This document shows, piece after piece, positions 3,021 to 63,865 of a DNA stretch of 64,000 bases. Position 1 is the stretch's first letter. Each line of letters opens with the position of its first letter. The position numbers and the translations under genes are program-made. The notes beneath the pieces are model-generated. The model worked only from the letters and a program-made list of their open reading frames with translations, did not search any database and was not told the DNA's origin. The stretch spans positions 1-64,000 of the forward strand of contig JAIUMV010000009.1 of assembly GCA_022565395.1 (NCBI GenBank), read 5' to 3'. The DNA comes from Marinobacter sp. (GTDB lineage Bacteria; Pseudomonadota; Gammaproteobacteria; Pseudomonadales; Oleiphilaceae).

Positions 3021-4136
3021 ATGCGAATAGGCGTACTCGGTGCAGGCCAACTTGGCCGTATGCTGGCCCTTGCGGGCTACCCACTCGCCCACAGCTTCGT
3101 GTTCTACGATATGTCGGGCAGCCCCAGTGCGGGCATTGGTGAAACCCTGGTGGACACCGCAGGCACCCAAGTGGACGACTTTCTCACCCGTGTGGATTGC
3201 GTGACCTATGAGTTTGAGCACCTGCCCGTAAACATTGCCGAGCAGATGGCCAACAGTAAACCCGTTTACCCGGCGCCACGGGCGCTTGAGGTCTGCCAGA
3301 ACCGGGTACTTGAAAAAACCCTGTTCGGCGAACTCGGGATCCCCACCCCTGAGTGGCGACTGGCCACCTCGGCAGAGTCACTGCAAGCGGCTGCCGAGAC
3401 GCTGGGCTGCCCGGTGGTCGCCAAATCGGTGACAGAAGGTTACGACGGCAAAGGCCAGGCCGTGCTGCGCTCACCTGAAGAGGCTGCCGCGGCCTGGGCG
3501 CACATCGGCCACGATAAACTGATTGTGGAGAAGTTCGTCAATTTTCACCGCGAAGTCTCCATTATTGCTGTACGCAGCCAAGCCGGGGAGCTGGCCTTCT
3601 ATCCCATGGCTGAGAATGCCCACCACAACGGTATTCTGCGTTACTCGATTGCTCCCGCCCCTCGTCTGTCAAACGAAACACGGGAAGAGGCCGAGCGTTA
3701 CATCCGCGCCCTGCTCAACGAACTCGATTACGTGGGCGTGCTGACCCTTGAGCTCTTCGAGACCGACAACGGGCTGGTAGCCAATGAAATGGCACCACGG
3801 GTGCACAATTCCGGGCACTGGACCATGGAAGGCGCCTACACCTCCCAGTTTGAAAACCATATCCGCGCCGTCAGCGGCCTGCCTCTGGGCAATACCGCTG
3901 CGCGCGGGGTCAGCTGTATGGTCAATATCATTGGCGAGCATGGTGACACCGCCAAGATCCTTGAGTTGCCTTATACCCACCTGCACCTGTACGACAAGGA
4001 AGAGCGCGCCGGCCGCAAGCTGGGCCATGTCAATGTCTGGGCCGACAGCTACGATGAACTTGTCTGGCGTGTGCGCAACTGCGCCAGCTTCCTGCCGGGC
4101 GCGCCAGAGCTGAACTGTTCCCTGACAAAGGGTTGA
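3021..4136 (+). CDS. purK: PurK, N5-carboxyaminoimidazole ribonucleotide synthase
   Basis: ATP-grasp enzyme that carboxylates aminoimidazole ribonucleotide with bicarbonate and ATP to give N5-CAIR, the substrate of PurE. The N-terminal GVLGAGQLGRMLALAG is the characteristic PurK opening. The ATP-grasp core follows, with KSVTEGYDGKGQ (phosphate-binding loop), IVEKFVNFHREVS and NEMAPRVHNSGHWT (metal ligands). At 371 residues it is full length. AGGAG precedes the ATG. It is the second gene of the purEK operon; no clear terminator is seen before sodB. Confidence 0.97.
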   Translation: MRIGVLGAGQLGRMLALAGYPLAHSFVFYDMSGSPSAGIGETLVDTAGTQVDDFLTRVDCVTYEFEHLPVNIAEQMANSKPVYPAPRALEVCQNRVLEKTLFGELGIPTPEWRLATSAESLQAAAETLGCPVVAKSVTEGYDGKGQAVLRSPEEAAAAWAHIGHDKLIVEKFVNFHREVSIIAVRSQAGELAFYPMAENAHHNGILRYSIAPAPRLSNETREEAERYIRALLNELDYVGVLTLELFETDNGLVANEMAPRVHNSGHWTMEGAYTSQFENHIRAVSGLPLGNTAARGVSCMVNIIGEHGDTAKILELPYTHLHLYDKEERAGRKLGHVNVWADSYDELVWRVRNCASFLPGAPELNCSLTKG

Positions 4137-4261
4137 AGTTAATAGAAACGCCCCCATAATCGGCACATAGCTTCGCTGTAAAACGGGTGTTAAGCTCCAT
4201 GACACCCATCACTACACGATCGGTAACGATCCAACTGAGAGAGATCAGGGAGAACGACCAC

Positions 4262-4840
4262 ATGGCATTTGAACTTCCCGCGCTGCCCTACGAGAAAAAC
4301 GCACTGGAACCGCACATTTCCGCGGAAACTCTGGAGTACCATTACGGCAAGCACCACCAGACCTACGTGACCAAGCTCAACGGCCTGGTTGAAGGCACTG
4401 ACAACGCCAGCAAGTCCCTGGAAGATATCATCAAGAGCTCCAGCGGCCCGCTGTTCAACAACGCTGCGCAAGTCTGGAACCACACCTTCTACTGGCACTG
4501 CCTGAGCCCCAACGGCGGCGGCGAACCTACCGGTGCTGTAGCCGACGCCATCAACAAGGCATTCGGCTCCTTCGAGGCCTTCAAGAAAGAGTTCAATGAC
4601 AAAGCAGCCAATAACTTTGGCTCAGGCTGGACCTGGCTGGTGAAAAAGGCTGACGGCAGCGTTGCCATTGCCAATACCAGCAATGCCGAAACACCGCTTA
4701 CCGGCGAAGACAAGCCTGTGCTGACCTGCGATGTTTGGGAGCATGCGTACTACATTGACTACCGTAACGCCCGCCCCAACTACCTGGAAGCCTTCTGGAA
4801 CCTGGTGAACTGGGATTTCGTCAACGAAAACCTGGCGTAA
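4262..4840 (+). CDS. sodB: Fe superoxide dismutase SodB
   Basis: Cytosolic superoxide dismutase of the Fe/Mn family, converting superoxide to oxygen and hydrogen peroxide. The start at MAFELPALPYEKNALEPHIS is the canonical SodB N-terminus; an upstream in-frame ATG would add 25 unrelated residues and is rejected. Metal ligands are visible: the N-terminal His in EPHIS, the HHQTYV helix, WNHTFYW, and the DVWEHAYYIDY block giving Asp and His. A Gln/Gly pattern of the iron type (NNAAQVWNHTF) supports Fe rather than Mn. Length is 192 aa. A strong terminator follows. Confidence 0.95.
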   Translation: MAFELPALPYEKNALEPHISAETLEYHYGKHHQTYVTKLNGLVEGTDNASKSLEDIIKSSSGPLFNNAAQVWNHTFYWHCLSPNGGGEPTGAVADAINKAFGSFEAFKKEFNDKAANNFGSGWTWLVKKADGSVAIANTSNAETPLTGEDKPVLTCDVWEHAYYIDYRNARPNYLEAFWNLVNWDFVNENLA

Positions 4841-4876
4841 TCTGATCAGGCCGGCCCTTGCGCCGACCTGATGGCA

Positions 4877-4912
4877 ACGCCCGATCCACTGCGGTGGTCG
4901 GGCGTTTTTTTT
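4877..4912 (+). terminator. Rho-independent terminator of sodB
   Basis: An ACGCCCGA / TCGGGCG stem with a GC-rich loop is followed directly by eight T residues, 36 nt after the sodB stop. Confidence 0.92.
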
Positions 4913-5103
4913 GGCTCATGCTTAGCCAGCGCCTCGTGAGGACCTGCTTTTACTTGTGCGTCGATTACTGGACCAGATCACCAAAACCGGCTATCAGTTA
5001 ATCAGAAGCTCCTTATAGAACAGTATTTAATACCTGACAGCGCGCAAGCTGGATTCCGGTCTATACTGGAAAGTCAGCACGCACGTCCCCACACTGGAGC
5101 CGG

Positions 5104-7218
5104 GTGCAGGTAACCGCTGCTGAAGTAGACCGCCAGACAACAATACGGGATGTAATGACTACACGATTCCGACTGGAACACCACTTGGGCTACCGCATCC
5201 TGCGCTGGGTGCTGGTTGTTGCATTGCTGACAGGGATGCTCCTGAGCACCTTACAAATCATTCTGGATGCCGAGCAGGTTTCCGAAGAGCTCGACCAGCA
5301 GGCGAACCAGACGCTCGCATTAGTGAGAGACGCATCAACCCAGGCCATTTTCAGCATTGATAGCGACCTCGCCCGCCAGGTTATCGATGGCCTGTTCCAA
5401 CAGGAGTCCATCCGCCACGCACGCATTGTGCATCCCGATGGCGAAGCCCTAGCACAACAGACGCGCCCGCTGGCAGAAGCGCCCTACCGGCGGCTGACAG
5501 ATCCTATTTTTCTCGCAGAGCGTAGCTACCGCACTCCCCTGTCCCGTATTAGCCAGCAGGAGGTCCAGACCTACGGCCATCTCGAAGTAAGCTATGACAC
5601 CAGCCACGCTGCCAACCTTTGGCTGGAACGCGCCCGCCTCACCTTCTTCTCCGGCATTGCCCGTGCTGTCATTCTCGGGCTGGTGCTCTATGTGGTGTAT
5701 CACGTACTGCTGACACGCCCACTGTTCCGCATCATTACGGACATTTCCCAGGTCAACCCGGACAACCCCGGCGAGCGGCTGCTTCAGGTGCCCAAGGGCC
5801 ACCGGCGCGATGAACTCGGGCTATGGGTCAACGCCACCAATAATATGTTACTGGCGATCCGGGAGAATCAGGAGAAACAACAGCAGGCTGAGGATCGCGT
5901 CAACCGGATGTCGCGTTACGACCACCTCACCGGCTTGCCCAATCGCGCCATGTTCCTTGGTTTGTTACAGAGCGCCATCGAAGACAGCCGGCGCAATAGA
6001 GAGGTGTTAGCGGCTTTCTGTTGTGGCATTGATGACTTCAAGAGCGTCAATGAACAGCATGGCTTCCACATGGGAGACCGTACGCTGCAAATCATCGCCG
6101 AGCGGCTCTCCGACGAGCGATCTGATCGCCTGTTACTGGCCGCGCGCCTGGGCAGTGACCAGTTCATCGTGGTGGAACGCCACCTCCGGGATGACTACCA
6201 GGCTGCGGTAACCGCTGAATGGTTGATGAATCAGTTTTCAAGACCCATCACACTGGGCAATCACAGCGTTCATATGTCAGCCACCATTGGCGTCGCCCTT
6301 TATCCGGCGGATGCAGATCATGCTGACCAGCTTCTGCAACGCGCAGAGCAAACCATGATGCTGGCCAAGACTCATGGCAAGGGCCATTTCCAGTTCTATG
6401 TGGCGGAAGTGGACGAGCAGATCCGAGAGCGCAAGCAGCTTGAAAAAGATCTTGGCCATGCCCTTCGGGAGCATCAGCTGCACCTGGTCTATCAACCCCA
6501 GGTGAGCCTGGAAAACGGCCGCATTTTGGGCGCTGAAGCGCTGCTGCGCTGGACCCATCCCAAGCACGGCCTGGTCCCTCCTGACCATTTCATTCCGCTG
6601 GCGGAGCTGAATGGCTTTATTGTGGAGCTGGGGCGATGGGTACTCGATGAGGCCTGCCGACAGGCAGCAGAATGGGCTGAGCAAGGCATCCTGCTGCGCA
6701 TTGCCGTCAACCTGTCAGCGGTGCAACTACGCCAGCCTGATCTGGTGGACTGCGTGCTGAACACCCTGAGCCGTCACCGACTGCCCAACAATCGCCTGGA
6801 GCTGGAAGTTACCGAAACCGGTTTTATGGAAAACCTTGAACTGGCCATTGAGAAACTGAACCGGCTGCGTGATGCGGGAATCAGTATCGCGGTGGACGAC
6901 TTTGGCACGGGCTACTCCTCACTGACCTACCTCAAACGACTGCCGGTGCAGAACCTCAAGATTGACAAGCAGTTCATTCGTGACCTGCTAGTGCATGAGG
7001 ACGACACCCGTATTGCCAACACCATTATCGACCTTGGCCGCAGCCTGAACCTGGATGTTATTGCCGAGGGGGTAGAGACGGCAGAGCAGGAAATGTACTT
7101 GCGGGAGAGGGGGTGCCAGATGGCGCAGGGCTATCATTTCAGCAAACCGCTTGCGCCAGCGGACTTTGTGCAGTATTACACTGACTTCCACAACAACCTG
7201 GCAGCACAGGAAGGCTAG
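5104..7218 (+). CDS. Membrane GGDEF/EAL protein, likely c-di-GMP phosphodiesterase
   Basis: Inner-membrane signalling protein of 704 aa. Transmembrane segments lie at about 33-52 and 186-204 and enclose a periplasmic sensor region. A HAMP-like linker follows to about 260. The GGDEF domain (about 270-430) is degenerate: the signature is LGSDQF (349-354), so cyclase activity is unlikely. The EAL domain is intact, with EALLRW (478-483), NLSAVQL, EVTET, DDFGTGYSSLTYLKRL and AEGVET, so it should hydrolyse c-di-GMP. A GTG start with GGAG nearby is used here; ATG at 5155 (MTTRF) is an alternative and may be the true start. The lemA gene starts 49 nt downstream. Confidence 0.9.
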   Translation: MQVTAAEVDRQTTIRDVMTTRFRLEHHLGYRILRWVLVVALLTGMLLSTLQIILDAEQVSEELDQQANQTLALVRDASTQAIFSIDSDLARQVIDGLFQQESIRHARIVHPDGEALAQQTRPLAEAPYRRLTDPIFLAERSYRTPLSRISQQEVQTYGHLEVSYDTSHAANLWLERARLTFFSGIARAVILGLVLYVVYHVLLTRPLFRIITDISQVNPDNPGERLLQVPKGHRRDELGLWVNATNNMLLAIRENQEKQQQAEDRVNRMSRYDHLTGLPNRAMFLGLLQSAIEDSRRNREVLAAFCCGIDDFKSVNEQHGFHMGDRTLQIIAERLSDERSDRLLLAARLGSDQFIVVERHLRDDYQAAVTAEWLMNQFSRPITLGNHSVHMSATIGVALYPADADHADQLLQRAEQTMMLAKTHGKGHFQFYVAEVDEQIRERKQLEKDLGHALREHQLHLVYQPQVSLENGRILGAEALLRWTHPKHGLVPPDHFIPLAELNGFIVELGRWVLDEACRQAAEWAEQGILLRIAVNLSAVQLRQPDLVDCVLNTLSRHRLPNNRLELEVTETGFMENLELAIEKLNRLRDAGISIAVDDFGTGYSSLTYLKRLPVQNLKIDKQFIRDLLVHEDDTRIANTIIDLGRSLNLDVIAEGVETAEQEMYLRERGCQMAQGYHFSKPLAPADFVQYYTDFHNNLAAQEG

Positions 7219-7267
7219 GGACTGCCCAAGGTCCTTTGCGCTTCCCGGAACTACACAAGGAGCCCGC

Positions 7268-7858
7268 ATGTCTACATCCACCATTATCGGCCTGGCGGTT
7301 ATCGGCGTTGTGGTCATTCTGACCATCGCCATCTATAACCGACTGGTATCGCTGCGCAACCAGTTCAAAAATGCATTCGCCCAGATCGACGTGCAATTGC
7401 AGCGTCGTCACGACCTGATACCGAACCTGGTGGAGGCCGCCAAGGCTTTCATGGGCCACGAACGCAATACCCTGACCGAGGTTATGAACGCCCGTACAGG
7501 GGCCGTACGCGCCCAGGAAGCGGCTGCTAAGGATCCTACGGATGGCAGCAAAATCAGAGGACTGGGAAGCGCTGAAAGCCTGTTGAACAAGGCGCTGGCC
7601 AACTTCTATGCGGTGGCCGAGAACTACCCGGAGCTGAAAGCCAACCAAACCATCAAAGACCTGATGGAAGAGCTGTCCAGCACCGAGAACCGGGTTGCCT
7701 TTGCCCGTCAGGCCTACAACGATGGGGTCATGACCTACAACATCTATCGGGAACAGTTCCCCAACAACGTGATTGCCGGTTTCTTCGCCTTCAAGCCCAC
7801 ATCTCAGCTGGAACTGGAGTCGCCAGAAGCTCGCCAGGCACCGCGCATAAGCTTCTGA
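7268..7858 (+). CDS. lemA: LemA family membrane protein
   Basis: Member of the LemA family, which has an N-terminal transmembrane helix and a cytoplasmic or periplasmic four-helix bundle. Here residues 4-24 (TIIGLAVIGVVVILTIAIYN) form the helix. The family hallmark follows: LRNQFKNAFAQIDVQLQRRHDLIPNLVEAAKAF, and later a NRVAFARQAYND segment. Length is 196 aa, near the family norm. The ATG at 7268 is preceded by AAGGAG; an upstream in-frame extension would run into the preceding gene. It lies 4 nt before the M48 protease gene, a pairing common in Gram-negative bacteria. The exact role of LemA is not established. Confidence 0.93.
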   Translation: MSTSTIIGLAVIGVVVILTIAIYNRLVSLRNQFKNAFAQIDVQLQRRHDLIPNLVEAAKAFMGHERNTLTEVMNARTGAVRAQEAAAKDPTDGSKIRGLGSAESLLNKALANFYAVAENYPELKANQTIKDLMEELSSTENRVAFARQAYNDGVMTYNIYREQFPNNVIAGFFAFKPTSQLELESPEARQAPRISF

Positions 7859-7862
7859 CGCC

Positions 7863-9839
7863 ATGGCCGGAGCCAACTTTTTTGAGCGCCAGGCACAAGC
7901 CCGGCGCAATACCTTGCTGCTGATCGGCCTGTTCACGCTGGCGGTTCTCATCATCACCCTCGCCATCAATCTGATTGGTTTTGTATTCACCCGCAACGCT
8001 CACCCCGGCACTCACTTCGGCCAGTGGCTACTGACCCAACAAGGCATTATCACCAGCGTAACGGTGATTAGCGTCATCCTGCTGGGCTCGCTGGTGCGCT
8101 GGGTGGATCTGGCCGCCGGCGGTGAGCGTGTGGCACGCATGGTGGGCGCCCGCCAGCTGGATCCGTCCACCCGTGATGAGCATGAACGTCGACTGGTTAA
8201 CATTGTCGAAGAGATGGCTATTGCCAGTGGCATTCCCGTCCCTCAGCTGTATGTGATGGATCAGGAAGCTGCCATCAACGCCTTTGTTGCGGGCTACAGC
8301 CCCACAGAAGCCGTTATGGTGGTTACCCGCGGTGCACTGACAGAACTGACCCGGGACGAGCTACAGGGCGTTGTCGGGCACGAGTTCAGCCATATCCTCA
8401 ACGGGGATATGCGCATTAACGTCCGTATTATTGCCATCCTGGCGGGCATTCTCATGATTGGCCAAATTGGCCAGTTCCTGGTGCAAACAGGGGCCTACGC
8501 AGGTGTGGGCCGGCGCCGCAGCCGCGATGACGACAAGCTGCGGGGCGCTGCCTTACTGGCCGGTCTTGCCCTTATGGTGATTGGCTACGCGGGGGTATTT
8601 TTCGGTCGCCTGATTCAAGCGGCTGTATCAAGGCAGCGGGAGATGCTGGCCGATGCGTCATCAGTACAGTTCACCCGTAACCCGGAGGGCATCGGCGGCG
8701 CACTGTTCAAGATTGGCGACAAAACCGGGCTATTGACCCGGACCAGTCATGCCAGCGACATGAATCATATGTGCTTTGCCGAAAGCGTGAAGGTTGGTTT
8801 TGCCAGCCTGCTGGCTTCACATCCACCGATAGATGCCAGAATCAATGCCATTCAGCCCGGGCTCCTGGCCCGTTTGAAAAGCCGCCAGCGTCATCACGCG
8901 CCTGCCCCCAGCCGTGCAGCTACCCAAGAGCCGCAGACGCTCGGGCAGTTCGCCACCGCCGCCCTGGCACCCCTGCGCCCGGGCAACAGCCAGACCGGGC
9001 TGCAGCTGGCGCCGCAACAGCGCCTTTCGGAGAGCGCGGGGCAGATCACTCGCGCCAATGAGGACTATGCCGCCGCGCTGATTCGTCAGATGCCCGCCAC
9101 CTTCCGGGACCTGCTCTACACCCGCACCGGCGCCATACAGTTGTGCTACGCCCTGCTGACCCATGAATTGGACGCCAAGGCCCGTGATACAGCCCTGGCA
9201 CTACTGGATGACCATCACCTGTTCCGTCCCCAGGCTGATTTGCTGGACCGGCTCTACCCTGCGCTGAACAGCATCGGCCCGGCACTGCGCTTCCCAGCCC
9301 TGGAGTTGGCCATGCCGTCGCTGCGCCGCCTTGACGATGAAGAAAAGGCGCAACTGCTGCTGCAGGTGGATCTGCTTGCCAGGGCAGACGGGCGCATCAG
9401 CCTGTTTGAGTTTGCCCTGACCAGCTTTCTTGGACGCCATCTGACACCAGGGGCCGGGCGGGTGACGCCCGTCAAGTATCGCCGCTACAAAGAGGTTTTG
9501 CCCGCCCTGGCCCTGCTCATGAGCCTGGTGGCCCGGGCCGCCACAACTGATCACCATGAAGCCAAGACGCTGTTTGCCCGGGTGATGGGTCCTTTTCTGG
9601 AGCGCGATGACAATACTATTCATCTGCAGGAACGGGTCAGCGGTAATGACTTGCGTATGGCCCTGCAGAAGCTCAGCCAGCTGTCGCCCTTGTTGAAGCC
9701 CGCTATCATCGACGCCTGTGGCGAATGCATCCTGCATGACGGCAAGGTAGACACCCGGGAGTACGAAATTCTGCGCCTGGTCTCCGACCAACTGGACTGC
9801 CCGATGCCGCCGCTGCCGGTTGCACACTCGGGACACTAA
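7863..9839 (+). CDS. M48 family membrane metalloprotease with TerB-like C-terminal region (658 aa)
   Basis: HtpX-like zinc endopeptidase. Two N-terminal membrane segments (about 16-40 and 60-80) precede the catalytic domain. The HEFSH zinc motif is at 173-177 and the third ligand is the Glu in REMLADA (about 260). Two more membrane segments lie between them. Unlike ordinary HtpX (about 290 aa), it continues for another 330 residues. That extension has a low-complexity linker and two acidic helical segments, LLARADGRISLFEF and CGECILHDGKVDTREYEILR, which resemble TerB-like folds. It may degrade or process inner-membrane proteins, with LemA as partner. The gene ends at a bidirectional terminator. 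Confidence 0.9.
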   Translation: MAGANFFERQAQARRNTLLLIGLFTLAVLIITLAINLIGFVFTRNAHPGTHFGQWLLTQQGIITSVTVISVILLGSLVRWVDLAAGGERVARMVGARQLDPSTRDEHERRLVNIVEEMAIASGIPVPQLYVMDQEAAINAFVAGYSPTEAVMVVTRGALTELTRDELQGVVGHEFSHILNGDMRINVRIIAILAGILMIGQIGQFLVQTGAYAGVGRRRSRDDDKLRGAALLAGLALMVIGYAGVFFGRLIQAAVSRQREMLADASSVQFTRNPEGIGGALFKIGDKTGLLTRTSHASDMNHMCFAESVKVGFASLLASHPPIDARINAIQPGLLARLKSRQRHHAPAPSRAATQEPQTLGQFATAALAPLRPGNSQTGLQLAPQQRLSESAGQITRANEDYAAALIRQMPATFRDLLYTRTGAIQLCYALLTHELDAKARDTALALLDDHHLFRPQADLLDRLYPALNSIGPALRFPALELAMPSLRRLDDEEKAQLLLQVDLLARADGRISLFEFALTSFLGRHLTPGAGRVTPVKYRRYKEVLPALALLMSLVARAATTDHHEAKTLFARVMGPFLERDDNTIHLQERVSGNDLRMALQKLSQLSPLLKPAIIDACGECILHDGKVDTREYEILRLVSDQLDCPMPPLPVAHSGH

Positions 9840-22313: not shown

Positions 22314-22323
22314 GGGTTATTTT

Positions 22324-22485
22324 GCCGCGGAATCCGCGGAAGGACGCGGAAAAACACGGAAAAACACGGACAAAAGATCACTGACACAGAAACTAAAAAT
22401 TATAGTTTTTGTTCTTGTCCGTGAATGTCCGTGTCTTCCGTGGCTAAAAATCTATTTTTCCGCGTCCTTCCGCGGATTCCGCGGC
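22324..22485. repeat. Family A palindromic element, copy A1
   Basis: Near-palindrome of 162 bp. The outer arms are GCCGCGGAATCCGCGGAAGG (left) and its complement at the right end. Inner arms contain repeated CACGGA / TCCGTG units, and the centre is A/T-rich. It lies 10 nt after the AraC stop and 12 nt before the end of convergent argG, so it could form a hairpin terminating both. The A/T centre is close to the reverse complement of the centre of copy A2. Confidence 0.93.
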
Positions 22486-22497
22486 TAAAAAACTACA

Positions 22498-27162: not shown

Positions 27163-27217
27163 CCCCTTTTTCCAAAAACGGCAAGCCGATTTGTTACGGA
27201 TTGTAAAACCCTTTTTT

Positions 27218-27408
27218 GCCGCTGAATCCGCGGAAGGACGCGGAAAGAAAGATTTTTTAGCCACGAACGACACTGACACTCACGGACAAGAACAAAAACT
27301 ATATTTTTACTTTCTGTATCAGTGATCTTTTGTCCGTGTCTTTCCGTGTCGTCCGTGGCTAATCAGTTTCATTTTTTTCTTTCCGCGTCCTTCCGCGGAT
27401 TCAGCGGC
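27218..27408. repeat. Family A palindromic element, copy A2
   Basis: Near-palindrome of 191 bp between the flaG 3' end and the fliD promoter. The left arm is GCCGCTGAATCCGCGGAAGG and the right arm ends with its complement (CCGCGGATTCAGCGGC). The T-for-C variant in the left arm (GCTG versus GCGG in other copies) is matched by CAGC in the right arm. The centre is in inverted orientation relative to copy A1. Confidence 0.93.
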
Positions 27409-27417
27409 AAATCAAAA

Positions 27418-42351: not shown

Positions 42352-43274
42352 AAGGATGGCGTCCGATAGTGCTGGCGAGTGATGCGATGGCGCTCATCTA
42401 CCACCAGCAGCAGGTCTGCACGAGCAGGCATCTCCGCCAGGGCGTGGCGGGTGATACGTTCGTAGTGCATAACAAACCGCTGGATAGCGGCATCAGACAT
42501 CAGACGCAGTGATGAATTGCACTCTTTTAGTGCGCTTGCTCGGGACTCAGCCAGCTTGTGCTCCTGCAAGGTGCGCCACGCCAGAACATGGGCCATAGAC
42601 GGGGCTTGCAGCATGATCAGGTAGTCGATGCGGGCATAGAAATCGCTGTAACGGCCCGCTAACTGTGCATTCACATAACGTCGCCAGCGTCCGTCGGCAT
42701 CCTCCTGGCCCTCCAGCTCATTAACCGGTGTCAGCAGCGCCACCTCAGGCTCCGGCCGGGCGGCCAGGCACCAGCCCTCCAACAGGATGATCTTCGCCTC
42801 CCCTTCATGGAGCGGCCAGCGGGAGAAGGGCTGACGGTCATCCACCGCCTTGTCAAAGGCTGGCAGCCGAATCTCGCTGCCAGGCCGTGCTGCCAGCAAT
42901 AGATCCAGCACTTGGTGGCCGAGGGTAATATCGTGGGTGCCGGGTACACCCCGGGTCAGCAGTAAAGGATGCTCCTGTCGCGCCAGGGTCTCACGCTCAC
43001 TGCGCGTCAGGTAAAGGTCATCAAGGGAAAGGCTGGCACAGGGGCAGCCAAAGACCTCGGTAAGCATTCGAGCAAGAAACAGCACCAGCGTGGACTTACC
43101 CGTCCCCTGCGCCCCATGAATGCCCACCACCAACGGCTGTCCCAGCACACGCTGGCGCTCTACCAGTCTGCCTGCGAGCGGCATGATCACCTCGGTAACC
43201 GCATGACTGTAGTCTGCGGGCAGACCCTGCGCCGCGATCAGCTCATCGGCCAGTGCCTTGATATCCGGCTGCAT
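42348..43274 (-). CDS. D-glycerate 3-kinase-like P-loop kinase
   Basis: P-loop kinase of 308 aa related to the YggC / plant GLYK type of glycerate kinases. Walker A is GIHGAQGTGKST (51-62). SLDDLYLT is the acidic nucleotide/phosphate-binding block, followed by GVPGTHDITLG and PAFDKAVDDR. It would phosphorylate the D-glycerate released by the phosphorylase, returning 3-phosphoglycerate. The start is ATG 43274 (MQPDIKAL) with AAGGAGG seven nt upstream. A longer in-frame start would translate the family A repeat and is rejected. It is the first gene of the operon. Confidence 0.88.
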   Translation of the reverse strand: MQPDIKALADELIAAQGLPADYSHAVTEVIMPLAGRLVERQRVLGQPLVVGIHGAQGTGKSTLVLFLARMLTEVFGCPCASLSLDDLYLTRSERETLARQEHPLLLTRGVPGTHDITLGHQVLDLLLAARPGSEIRLPAFDKAVDDRQPFSRWPLHEGEAKIILLEGWCLAARPEPEVALLTPVNELEGQEDADGRWRRYVNAQLAGRYSDFYARIDYLIMLQAPSMAHVLAWRTLQEHKLAESRASALKECNSSLRLMSDAAIQRFVMHYERITRHALAEMPARADLLLVVDERHRITRQHYRTPSL

Positions 43275-43353
43275 CTGCTGCCTCCTTAAAAGCCTGGGTT
43301 CCAGTCTCTCAGGAGTTGCAGGATTTGTACCAGCGAGTGGGGGGAGATTTTTT

Positions 43354-43432
43354 GCCGCGGAAACCGCGGAAGGACGCGGAAAGAAAGATCTAAAAATTTG
43401 GCCACGGACGACAAAGACGACAAAGACAAAAA
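43354..43432. repeat. Family A element A3, left arm
   Basis: GCCGCGGAAACCGCGGAAGG outer arm plus inner GCCACGGACGACAAAGACGA units. The variant AAACC, instead of AATCC seen in other copies, is mirrored by GGTTT in the right arm at 44313-44379. The two arms are 880 nt apart with three ORFs between them. Confidence 0.9.
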
Positions 43433-43488
43433 GCCGTAAGGTAGCGATAATGTCGTTGTCGAATACCTGTTGAAAAAGGACTTTTGAA

Positions 43489-43662
43489 GTGAGAGATGGA
43501 TTTTGGCTGTTAGTCACAGGACTGTTTTTTGCGGGGCTCGCCTGGGCGTTCTTTTATTACTTTCAGCAAACAAGCTTTGTGATACTTCTGTGCATAGTGC
43601 TTCTGGGTCTGATTTCCGAGCTTCGCAGCCGGCGATCAGCCCGGCGTAGTAACGGTCGCTGA
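43489..43662 (+). CDS. Small membrane protein (57 aa) in the split repeat
   Basis: Unrecognised small protein beginning at GTG 43489, with AAAAAGGA eight nt upstream. It opens VRDGFWLLVTGLFFAGLAWA, continues with aromatic residues and a second hydrophobic stretch (SFVILLCIVLLGLISEL), and ends with a basic tail (RSRRSARRSNGR). Two membrane helices in hairpin form are predicted. It lies inside the family A split element, upstream of the toxin-antitoxin pair on the same strand. It could be a cargo gene, a type I-like toxin or an unrelated small protein. Confidence 0.6.
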   Translation: MRDGFWLLVTGLFFAGLAWAFFYYFQQTSFVILLCIVLLGLISELRSRRSARRSNGR

Positions 43663-43773
43663 CTTGTCGGCTTTGCCGTTGAGGAAAGTCGGTGACGCCT
43701 TGCGTGGTAATGCGGACAGTGGATAAACTGATGACAACTCATTGGTTGGGTAGTTTTTAAAGGAGCTCGGCGT

Positions 43774-43959
43774 ATGCAATCCCATACTGCGAAGCAGGAA
43801 GCGCTGGAGACCATTCAGCGCCTTCCAGATACTGTCGATACCGAAGAAATGATGTATCACCTGTACGTTCTTGAGAACATTCGCCGCGGCCAGCGTGATG
43901 CTGAAGAGGGCAAAACGCAAACTACGGAGGAGGTTCTGAAGGACATTCAGTCATGGTGA
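43774..43959 (+). CDS. Putative antitoxin of type II TA pair (61 aa)
   Basis: Short acidic protein directly upstream of a ParE/RelE-family toxin, overlapping it by 7 nt, the usual antitoxin position. Sequence features are AKQEALETIQRLPDTVDTEE, then MMYHLYVLENIRRGQRDAEEGKTQTTEEVLKDIQSW. This resembles a recurring antitoxin type with a helical core and a toxin-binding tail, without a clear ribbon-helix-helix or HTH motif. AAAGGAGC precedes the ATG. Confidence 0.82.
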   Translation: MQSHTAKQEALETIQRLPDTVDTEEMMYHLYVLENIRRGQRDAEEGKTQTTEEVLKDIQSW

Positions 43960-44267
43960 TATGGACTGCGCATGCCCAAGCCCAGCTGCGAGCGATACAT
44001 GATTATATTGCACAAGATTCTCCGCTCTATGCCAAGCGCGTCGCTCAAGAGTTAGTTCATGCAGCAGCCCCGTTGAAAGAACTGCCCCACATAGGGCGAA
44101 AGGTACCTGAACTCGACCAGGAAGCAGTGCGGGAAATTGGCCTCTACTCCTACCGAATCATGTATGAGCTAAAGCAGAATGGTCAGGTATCTATATTAGC
44201 CATTATCCACAAACGACGGCACATTGAACCAACGCAGATCCCCAGAACCTCGCCCCTAGAGAACTGA
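43953..44267 (+). CDS. ParE/RelE-family toxin (104 aa)
   Basis: Toxin of the RelE/ParE fold. The opening IWTAHAQAQLRAIHDYIAQDSPLYAKRVAQELV is the ParE-like N-terminal helix pair, followed by LKELPHIGRKVPELDQEAVREIGLYSYRIMYELKQNGQVSILAIIHKRRHI with the typical beta-sheet. ParE members target gyrase while RelE-like members cut mRNA, and the subfamily cannot be settled. The start overlaps the antitoxin stop by 7 nt. The pair sits inside a split family A hairpin repeat. Confidence 0.88.
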   Translation: MVIWTAHAQAQLRAIHDYIAQDSPLYAKRVAQELVHAAAPLKELPHIGRKVPELDQEAVREIGLYSYRIMYELKQNGQVSILAIIHKRRHIEPTQIPRTSPLEN

Positions 44268-44312
44268 GCACACACGTTAAGCCTCCTCCCAAAAAATCAG
44301 CTCTTGTACCTG

Positions 44313-44379
44313 AAAGTCCGTGTCGCCTTGGCTAATCAGTTTTTTTCTTTCTTCCGCGTCCTTCCGCGGTTTCCGCGGC
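44313..44379. repeat. Family A element A3, right arm
   Basis: Inner AGTCCGTGTCGCCTTGGCTAATCAG and outer CTTCCGCGTCCTTCCGCGG followed by TTTCCGCGGC. It pairs with the left arm at 43354-43432, including the arm-specific AAACC/GGTTT change. Confidence 0.9.
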
Positions 44380-44386
44380 AAAAACA

Positions 44387-44412
44387 AAAACGGGGCCGCG
44401 AAGGGCCCCGTT
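44387..44412 (-). terminator. Terminator of fumarase
   Basis: ACGGGGCC and GGGCCCCGT pair around a short GCGAA loop; on the minus strand T-rich TTTTTGTTTTTG follows. It is 20 nt after the fumarase stop. Confidence 0.9.
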
Positions 44413-44431
44413 CTGGTCAGCCAGTGGCTGA

Positions 44432-45946
44432 TTACACCGCCTTGGCAGCAATAATCTTTTCGTGCCACTCCACCGGGCCGGTCTGGTGGACCGAGCTACC
44501 GCGGGAGTCCACCGCTACGGTGACTGGCATGTCCTCTACTTCAAATTCGTAGATGGCTTCCATACCCAGTTCCGGGAAGGCCACCACCTTGGCGCCCTTG
44601 ATGGCCTTGGAGACCAGATAGGCGGCACCACCGACGGCCATCAGGTAGACTGCACCGTATTCCTTGATGGCATCAATAGCCACCTGGCCGCGTTCGGATT
44701 TGCCAATCATGCCGGTCAGACCGGTCTTCTCCAGCATGGTGCGGGTGAACTTGTCCATGCGGGTGGCGGTGGTGGGGCCTGCGGGGCCCACTACTTCGTC
44801 ACGTACCGGGTCTACCGGGCCCACGTAATAGATGAAGCGCCCTTTCAGGTCCACCGGCAGCTCTTCGCCGCGCTCGATCATGTCTACCATCACTTTATGG
44901 GCAGCATCACGGCCCGTCAGCATCTTGCCGGACAGCAATACCGTCTCACCGGGTTTCCAGTCCTTGACGTCTTCGGACGTTACCGTGTCCAGATTTACCC
45001 GGCGCACGTTGTCACCCACTTCCCATGTGATCTCAGGCCAGTCATCCAGGCTCGGCGGGGTTTGCAAGGCGGGGCCGGAACCGTCCAGCACAAAGTGGGC
45101 GTGACGGGTAGCGGCACAGTTGGGGATGATTGCCACTGGCTTGTTGGCCGCGTGGGTTGGGTAATCCTTGACCTTGACATCCAGCACCGTGGTCAGGCCA
45201 CCCAGGCCCTGAGCGCCGATACCCAGCTCGTTCACTTTTTCAAACAGTTCAAGGCGCAGCTCTTCGGCGCGATTGGAGGCGCCACGGGCTTTCAGGTCAT
45301 GGATGTCGATGGGTTCCAGCAGGGCTTCTTTTGCCAGCTCCATCGCCTTCTCGGCCGTACCGCCGATACCAATACCCAGCATACCGGGCGGACACCAGCC
45401 TGCGCCCATCTGGGGAACCATTTTCAGCACCCAGTCCACCACCGAGTCGGACGGGTTCAACATGGCAAACTTGGACTTGGCTTCGGAGCCGCCGCCCTTG
45501 GCTGCCACGTGCACGTCCACCGTGTTACCCGGCACCATCTTGTAGTGAATAATGGCAGGGGTGTTGTCTTTGGTGTTCTGGCGCTTGCCGTCGGGGTCAG
45601 CCAGTACGGATGCCCGCAACACGTTATCCGGGTGGGTGTAGGCGCGGCGTACGCCTTCGTTGATGACATCGTCCAGCGGCATGTCGCATTCAAACTTCAC
45701 ATCCATACCGATGTTCACAAACACGGTGACGATACCGGTGTCCTGACAGATGGGGCGATGGCCCTGGGCACACATGCGGGAGTTGATGAGAATCTGCGCC
45801 ATGGCGTCCTTCGCCGCCTGGGATTCTTCTCTCTGATAGGCCTCATACACCGCCTGGATAAAGTCCTTCGGGTGATAGTAGGAAATGAACTGCAGCGCGT
45901 CCGCTACGCTCTCGATCAGGTCTTCCTGGCGGATTACGGTCGTCAT
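44432..45946 (-). CDS. fumA: Class I fumarate hydratase
   Basis: Iron-sulphur fumarase of the TCA cycle, interconverting fumarate and malate. At 504 aa it has both the N-terminal (alpha) and C-terminal (beta) parts in one chain. [4Fe-4S] cysteines lie in the contexts MCAQGHRPICQDTG, GWCPPGMLGIGIGG and IIPNCAATRHAHF. The C-terminal part carries VLLSGKMLTGRDAAH, YVGPVDPVRDEVVGPAGPTTATRMD and AYLVSKAIKGAKVVAFPELGMEAIYEFEVEDMPVTVAVD. The start at 45946 (MTTVIRQEDLIE) is preceded by GAGAAG. An in-frame upstream extension is not homologous. Confidence 0.95.
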   Translation of the reverse strand: MTTVIRQEDLIESVADALQFISYYHPKDFIQAVYEAYQREESQAAKDAMAQILINSRMCAQGHRPICQDTGIVTVFVNIGMDVKFECDMPLDDVINEGVRRAYTHPDNVLRASVLADPDGKRQNTKDNTPAIIHYKMVPGNTVDVHVAAKGGGSEAKSKFAMLNPSDSVVDWVLKMVPQMGAGWCPPGMLGIGIGGTAEKAMELAKEALLEPIDIHDLKARGASNRAEELRLELFEKVNELGIGAQGLGGLTTVLDVKVKDYPTHAANKPVAIIPNCAATRHAHFVLDGSGPALQTPPSLDDWPEITWEVGDNVRRVNLDTVTSEDVKDWKPGETVLLSGKMLTGRDAAHKVMVDMIERGEELPVDLKGRFIYYVGPVDPVRDEVVGPAGPTTATRMDKFTRTMLEKTGLTGMIGKSERGQVAIDAIKEYGAVYLMAVGGAAYLVSKAIKGAKVVAFPELGMEAIYEFEVEDMPVTVAVDSRGSSVHQTGPVEWHEKIIAAKAV

Positions 45947-54978: not shown

Positions 54979-55006
54979 TCGGGGCCTTTAAGGCTCCGGT
55001 TTTTTG
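54979..55006 (+). terminator. Terminator of the propeller gene
   Basis: GGGGCC and GGCTCC pair (one wobble) around TTTAA, followed by GGTTTTTT. It is 12 nt after the stop and overlaps the start of family A element A4. Confidence 0.75.
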
Positions 55007-55187
55007 CCGCGGAATCCACGGAAAACGCGGAAAAAAGATTAAAGATTTTTAGCCACGGACGGCACGGACTTACACGGACATGGACTTACTCACTTACTTA
55101 AAGCTTTAATCGCTTTAGTCCGTGGTTGTCCGTGCCGTCCGTGGCTAATCAGTGTCTTCTTTCCGCGTTTTCCGTGGATTCCGCGGC
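55006..55187. repeat. Family A palindromic element, copy A4
   Basis: Near-palindrome of 182 bp between convergent genes. The left arm is GCCGCGGAATCCACGG then AAAACGCGG. The right arm ends CCGCGTTTTCCGTGG then ATTCCGCGGC. Both changes from the usual arm (CACGG for CGCGG, and the AAAA run) appear as complementary changes on the other side. Confidence 0.93.
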
Positions 55188-55196
55188 AAACCCTCA

Positions 55197-57543: not shown

Positions 57544-57561
57544 GATTTACTGAAAGGTTTG

Positions 57562-57737
57562 GCCGCGGAACCCGCGGAATAACGCGGAAAGAAAAGACTA
57601 AAGACTTTTAGCCACGGACGACACGGACTTACACGGACAAAGATTTACTAACAACTAATATCTTTTATCTTTGTCGTCCGTGATTGTCCGTGGCTAATCA
57701 GTATCTTTTTTCCGCGTCCTTCCGCGGATTCCGCGGC
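57562..57737. repeat. Family A palindromic element, copy A5
   Basis: Near-palindrome of 176 bp between convergent genes. Left arm GCCGCGGAACCCGCGGAATAACGCGG; right arm ends CCGCGTCCTTCCGCGG then ATTCCGCGGC. The arms do not mirror each other's changes here (AACCC versus ATTCC, ATAA versus TCCTT), unlike A2, A3 and A4. Confidence 0.92.
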
Positions 57738-57749
57738 TAAAAACGCCCT

Positions 57750-63741: not shown

Positions 63742-63774
63742 GTGCCGGGCGCTGAAGTCAGGTAAGATTTTTTA

Positions 63775-63807
63775 GCCGCGGAATCCGCGGAAGAACGCGG
63801 AATAAAA
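63775..63807. repeat. Family A element, lone left arm (A6)
   Basis: GCCGCGGAATCCGCGGAAGAACGCGGAATAAAAAG after the ATP-grasp stop. No inner CCACGGAC arm and no right arm are found in the remaining 190 nt, so this is a truncated copy or the element continues in a different form. Confidence 0.8.
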
Positions 63808-63865
63808 AGAGCTAAGGTGACTCCGATTAATCGGTGAGATCCCGGTTATGACGTTAAAACAGGCA

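Follow-up and report, generated by a model that had tools for sequence, protein, structure and literature searches.

The window (the whole 64-kb stretch of DNA analyzed here) carries, between a kinase gene on one side and a fumarase gene on the other, a hairpin-ended element, A3, whose full span was set at 1,024 bp by the pairing of arms across the genome. Its outer arms form an inverted repeat enclosing 970 nt, an inner shell sits inside them, and all three open reading frames (ORFs) between the arms lie on the plus strand (Table 1). The distance of 880 nt that the first-pass annotation gave for the arms holds as the gap between the inner arms (ca. 877 to 880 nt) but not for the outer ones. 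In the predicted fold, the A3 transcript is closed by a long stem; a search of Rfam with positions 42900 to 44800 revealed no RNA family at the locus.

Table 1. Features of A3 and of related copies in the window
Feature	Position	Strand	Remarks
Left outer arm	43349..43381	+	TTTTTGCCGCGGAAACCGCGGAAGGACGCGGAA; three CRCGGA units ca. 10 nt apart; 33/33 complementary with 44352-44384
Left inner arm	~43400..43435	+	GGCCACGGACGACAAAGACGACAAAGACAAAAAGCC; same plan as the outer arm and as short copies
57-aa ORF, GTG start, hydrophobic	43489..43662	+	Gene status uncertain
Antitoxin-like ORF, 61 aa	43774..43959	+	Homologue adjoins ParE in L040
ParE-type toxin, 104 aa	43953..44267	+	PF05016, E=5.4e-17; overlaps antitoxin stop
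Right inner arm, degenerate	~44313..44339	-	GCCAAGGCGACACGGACTTT on minus strand; alignment L241, score 73
Right outer arm	44352..44384	-	Mate of 43349-43381
Short copy without cargo	22320..22494	.	Arm pattern
Short copy	27212..27411	.	Both outer arms carry CCGCTGAATCC
Short copy without cargo	55000..55190	.	Arm pattern
Short copy without cargo	57558..57743	.	Arm pattern
Single left arm, no right mate nearby	63765..63815	+	Arm pattern

The cargo reading of these ORFs stands in part. ParE is clear, its match to PF05016 scoring 62.6 bits against a cutoff of 23. The antitoxin gave no match above the cutoff in Pfam, NCBIfam, or PADLOC and falls in no known ParD-type family, but it is conserved beside ParE in a relative (Table 1); the closest relative of the toxin (64% identity, in genome G050), which has no arms, is adjoined by the same antitoxin. 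The 57-aa ORF, on the other hand, had no convincing homologue in family or plasmid searches, and it is doubtful that it is a real gene. Like other type II ParDE modules, the pair consists of a ParE-family toxin and an overlapping upstream antitoxin gene; it differs in that the antitoxin matches no named family and in that its location within a hairpin element is atypical among the relatives of this ParDE. Relatives of ParE are present in 63 of the 163 family genomes, and arms surround none of the 26 ParDE relatives for which flanks were available, which argues that ParDE in A3 is a passenger and not the founder of the element. The view that ParDE is tied to the arms as a cassette is therefore not upheld, given that its relatives are armless and that cargo is missing from almost every copy of the arms.

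The arms belong to a large family. The window contains their core pattern 9 times, compared with 0.07 expected, and when the 3.9-Mb source genome was searched with the pattern (allowing up to two mismatches and with the reversed pattern as a control), 96 matches were found, 49 forward and 47 reverse, against 0 for the control. Pairing of neighboring arms gave 39 elements and 12 single arms. All but two of the paired elements (37/39) span 136 to 234 bp; the exceptions are A3 and a copy of 1,155 bp on contig 6. Both long copies hold toxin-antitoxin genes, and the second also holds the only GxxExxY gene in the genome. The family numbers about 40 to 50 copies in the source genome and is nested palindromic: a typical short copy reads outer GCCGCGGAATCCGCGGAAGGACGCGGAA, inner GCCACGGACGACACGGACnnnCACGGAC, a center of ca. 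45 nt, and then the mirror image, each shell being built of three CRCGGA units with a spacing of ca. 10 nt. In one copy (L030, positions 1263 to 1494) the left side has one shell more, with CCGCGG, CCACGGAA, and CCACGGGC arms following one after another. The short copies sit at many extragenic places. Element ends read TTTTT-GCC...GGC-AAAAA; since both outer ends are A-runs and no U-run follows the hairpins on either strand, we rejected a reading of these structures as intrinsic terminators.

Arms are more alike within a copy than between copies (mean difference of 1.21 nt within an element and 2.21 nt between elements; 0 of 20,000 shuffles gave a value as low). The two arms of A3 therefore belong to one element with the cargo in its center, as had been proposed at first pass. 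The change cited in support of that proposal, AAACC on the left and GGTTT on the right, is not private to A3, however; about 9% of arms have it, and in three elements it is common to both arms (permutation p=0.0005).

Other cargo does lie between such arms, a point that the first-pass annotation had proposed to check. On contig 6 (L018, positions 6529 to 7700), the long copy lies between a polysaccharide-export gene and wzz and consists of a left arm, GxxExxY, a half arm, VapBC (whose toxin is a PIN domain protein), and a right arm. This GxxExxY protein matches TIGR04256 (E=2.8e-40), and its gene is the sole PF13366 gene in the source genome. The corresponding site of Tamilnaduibacter salinus (L062) has, in order, an arm, GxxExxY, an arm, a four-helix-bundle (S23) fragment, an arm, a MntA/HepT-like pair, two further arms, and wzz, while near wzz in Marinobacter daqiaonensis (L063) the order is GxxExxY, arm, VapBC, arm. 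The regions inspected around the unpaired arms of the source genome showed no further cargo between arms, and PADLOC assigned no defense family to GxxExxY, ParDE, or VapC.

A Marinobacter genome (G227; L291, positions 4214 to 9355) has two GxxExxY genes, each beside a short hairpin, followed by toxin-antitoxin-like genes (VapB/MazF-like, HigA-like, and DUF2442). In G286, a VapC gene lies between two nested hairpin elements (L289, positions 4201 to 5118). An S23-like match on contig 46 of the source genome was rejected: it matches bAvd, an accessory protein of diversity-generating retroelements, and is unrelated to the arms. This bAvd-like protein (PF22296; L215, positions 3461 to 3844) is encoded beside long phage-like genes, and the locus is probably a diversity-generating retroelement.

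To our knowledge, the GxxExxY proteins found in the annotation of many bacterial genomes carry no assigned function. A scan for genes of that name yielded 79 loci, 75 of them with both flanks usable, and arms were called where the score of an inverted pair exceeded the 99th percentile of shuffled flanks. By this measure, inverted arms bracket 67 of the 75 GxxExxY genes, across many phyla, compared with 10.4% of 328 neighbor genes, and inverted scores in the GxxExxY flanks exceed direct ones (p=2.6e-5). The arms again consist of short tandem units, and the unit differs by clade, being ACAGGATT in Verrucomicrobia, AAGAACATA in Bacteroides and Prevotella, ACGCGGATT in Flavobacterium, and ACACGGATG in Nitrosomonadales. 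Similarity of arms follows similarity of the GxxExxY proteins (Mantel r=0.675, p<=0.0005), a correlation that is confounded with taxonomy; one Marinobacter copy is nearest to Halomonas copies in arm and protein alike. Some GxxExxY genes (L064, L065, and L067) lie beside arms rather than between them.

Within the 163 family genomes, arm matches ranged from 0 to 139 per genome, with the control at 0 throughout. Nine of these genomes are arm rich, with at least nine matches each (range, 9 to 139). GxxExxY was found in 14 genomes in all, namely, 7 of the 9 arm-rich ones and 7 of the remaining 154 (Fisher p=2e-7). Two genomes, G286 and G241, are arm rich yet have no GxxExxY; in arm-poor genomes, intact GxxExxY genes have arms or adjacent hairpins built from different units, CACGAAA and CACGGAC among them. 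A search of the open-access literature revealed no link between GxxExxY and such repeats. Taken together, the arms and GxxExxY point to small mobile elements of a family that has hardly been described.

The modeled GxxExxY protein adopts a PD-(D/E)XK fold (pLDDT 95). Its top structural match in the PDB is Cas4 SSO0001 (Z score of 10.1 over 101 residues; rmsd 3.6), with restriction-enzyme-like folds, Hjc resolvases, and lambda-type exonucleases at lower Z scores; a search of the PDB by sequence returned only chance matches to histones. In the catalytic motif, D67..E77-x-K79, two residues, D67 and K79, show no variation among 60 sequences, and E77 is kept in at least 90%.

Filled and empty states can be compared at the rmlB-rmlD junction of Marinobacter. 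There is no insert at this junction in five loci (L223, L224, L226, L227, and L237), and in two of these (L223 and L226) rmlB and rmlD overlap. In L225 the junction is occupied by a short hairpin; L217 and L218 have an arm-GxxExxY-arm block there, at the same point but with arm sequences that differ. The coexistence of empty, hairpin, and arm-GxxExxY-arm states indicates that the arms and gene are gained or lost as a unit. The idea of arms and cargo as one unit thus holds for the GxxExxY block, for which empty sites exist in relatives, but not for ParDE, which is not tied to the arms. Target-site duplications, which had been suggested at first pass as a feature to look for at the element ends, did not materialize: none was enriched across 43 copies of the source genome, and none was evident at the rmlB-rmlD junctions. 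In L220 and L221, the junction carries a different palindromic repeat, GGGGTCAGATGAA...TTCATCTGACCCC, and several genomes of the family (L144, L149, and L156) have repeats resembling this type after fumarase.

The genus of the A3 host comprises one genome, and the comparison of A3 therefore extends outside the genus. Across the fumarase junctions of 29 family genomes, arms were found in the source genome and Tamilnaduibacter only, among the matches listed. In Tamilnaduibacter, a nested element without toxin-antitoxin genes lies 3′ of fumarase; we considered this site as a clean empty/full pair with A3 and rejected it because the gene beyond the element is not the one found at the A3 locus.

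Among known systems, the closest kind to the A3 elements is the intervening sequence (IVS) of 23S rRNA genes. The 23S IVS of Coxiella burnetii has been described as selfish and as excised by RNase III; it has a 28-bp terminal stem, an S23 ORF, and tandem heptamers (GACAGAT) beside the ORF, and the same work cites an early proposal that the IVS ORF serves mobility (PMC4990558). As in these elements, a small ORF is enclosed by terminal inverted repeats able to pair into a long stem, A3 itself having 33/33 complementary outer arms and a predicted closing stem, and in Tamilnaduibacter the S23 fragment and GxxExxY have arms in common. Moreover, S23 genes sampled from Gammaproteobacteria (L170 to L196) have inverted arms of tandem 7- to 8-nt units in 19 of 21 cases, so that the S23 four-helix-bundle genes with their inverted tandem arms present a sister architecture to that of GxxExxY. 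However, the A3 family is intergenic, its typical gene encodes the GxxExxY nuclease, and it is marked by units of ca. 10 nt, nested shells, and toxin-antitoxin cargo; A3 in particular contains neither S23 (PF05635) nor GxxExxY, its cargo being ParDE. A3 is thus alike in plan but, lying outside rRNA and having no S23, is not a 23S IVS.

A second resemblance is to miniature elements of the MITE/TIME kind, in which short copies bounded by terminal inverted repeats are numerous and a few long ones have genes; the 39 pairs and 96 arm matches fit this pattern. Arms matching those of the short copies bracket GxxExxY, which might, hypothetically, act as the transposase of an autonomous form. The arms of the A3 family differ in being nested and composed of tandem short units, no DDE or Y1 transposase was recognized between them, and the hallmark target-site duplication was not found. 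REPINs, mobilized by RAYTs, likewise are short paired inverted repeats present extragenically in many copies per genome, but they differ in the plan and size of the arms, and the protein associated with the A3 family has a PD-(D/E)XK fold rather than that of a Y1 tyrosine transposase. Arrays of the arm-gene-arm type also prompted a tentative comparison with integron gene cassettes, which are defined by an integron integrase and attC sites.

We favor, at a probability of roughly 60%, the reading that A3 is a cargo-bearing copy of a hairpin-ended family in which the full-length form, with GxxExxY, is the probable mobilizer and ParDE is a passenger. The arms, each of about three CRCGGA units, are read as the ends of the element, with the inner shell following the same plan, and the palindrome center, which usually measures ca. 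45 nt, holds in A3 an intact ParDE operon. The full-length form would carry the gene for the GxxExxY PD-(D/E)XK nuclease between its arms, and the short copies without cargo would be its nonautonomous relatives. GxxExxY most likely recognizes the arms or the hairpin or cruciform that they form and thereby may help the element to insert itself or to multiply. Once in the center, toxin-antitoxin genes would be carried along and may in turn stabilize the copy. It is by inference that we cast GxxExxY as the mobilizing enzyme and the hairpin as its substrate, and the same applies to the route by which ParDE entered.

A somewhat unlikely alternative is that ordinary illegitimate recombination placed ParDE in the loop of a hairpin already present at the locus, so that the arms were not its carrier and A3 has at no time been mobile as a whole. 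That relatives of ParDE live without arms, that nearly all arm copies are devoid of cargo, that the right inner arm of A3 is degenerate, and that in Tamilnaduibacter fumarase is followed by a nested element without toxin-antitoxin genes all speak for such an event. The recurrence of toxin-antitoxin genes between arms beside GxxExxY at three loci in three genera (contig 6 of the source genome, Tamilnaduibacter, and M. daqiaonensis), however, is more than one would expect of single accidents.

It is less likely again that the hairpins are REPIN-like palindromes mobilized by a RAYT (Y1 transposase), with GxxExxY as mere cargo. The short copies do resemble paired inverted repeats at many extragenic places, and the GxxExxY genes that lie beside their arms would fit, but the number of arms tracks the presence of GxxExxY across the 163 genomes and the sequence of the arms tracks that of the protein. 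Slightly less probable still is that the hairpins are immobile, functional RNA or DNA structures (terminators, mRNA stabilizers, or RNase III sites) that enclose genes by chance. The long stem predicted to close the A3 transcript and the covariation of arms within a copy are compatible with such a role; the A-runs at both outer ends are not those of intrinsic terminators, and both the presence and absence of the block at rmlB-rmlD and the range of 0 to 139 arm matches among relatives fit mobile DNA better. Finally, that two half-elements flank a chromosomal toxin-antitoxin operon by chance, to which the 12 single arms in the genome might lend some color, is very improbable and already disfavored, given that the 33-nt arms of A3 are identical (the minority AAACC variant included), that arm matching within elements far exceeds that of shuffled pairings, and that the inner arms of A3 are likewise inverted.

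Returning to the mobile hairpin-ended family, a wider and more tentative possibility is that GxxExxY marks a class of mobile elements that crosses phyla, with inverted, clade-specific tandem arrays as its ends and a plan akin to that of the S23 IVS. In such a class, the nuclease would act on hairpins and leave no target-site duplication, nonautonomous hairpins would be seeded along the way, and toxin-antitoxin modules would be picked up in the center. For GxxExxY itself, the inverted arms around 67 of the 75 loci and the tracking of the gene by arm number across the 163 genomes provide a concrete and testable candidate role, that of enzyme of a small hairpin-ended element. Such a role would tie together the S23 rRNA intervening sequences, which have long lacked an explanation, the palindromic repeats between genes, and the dissemination of toxin-antitoxin modules.
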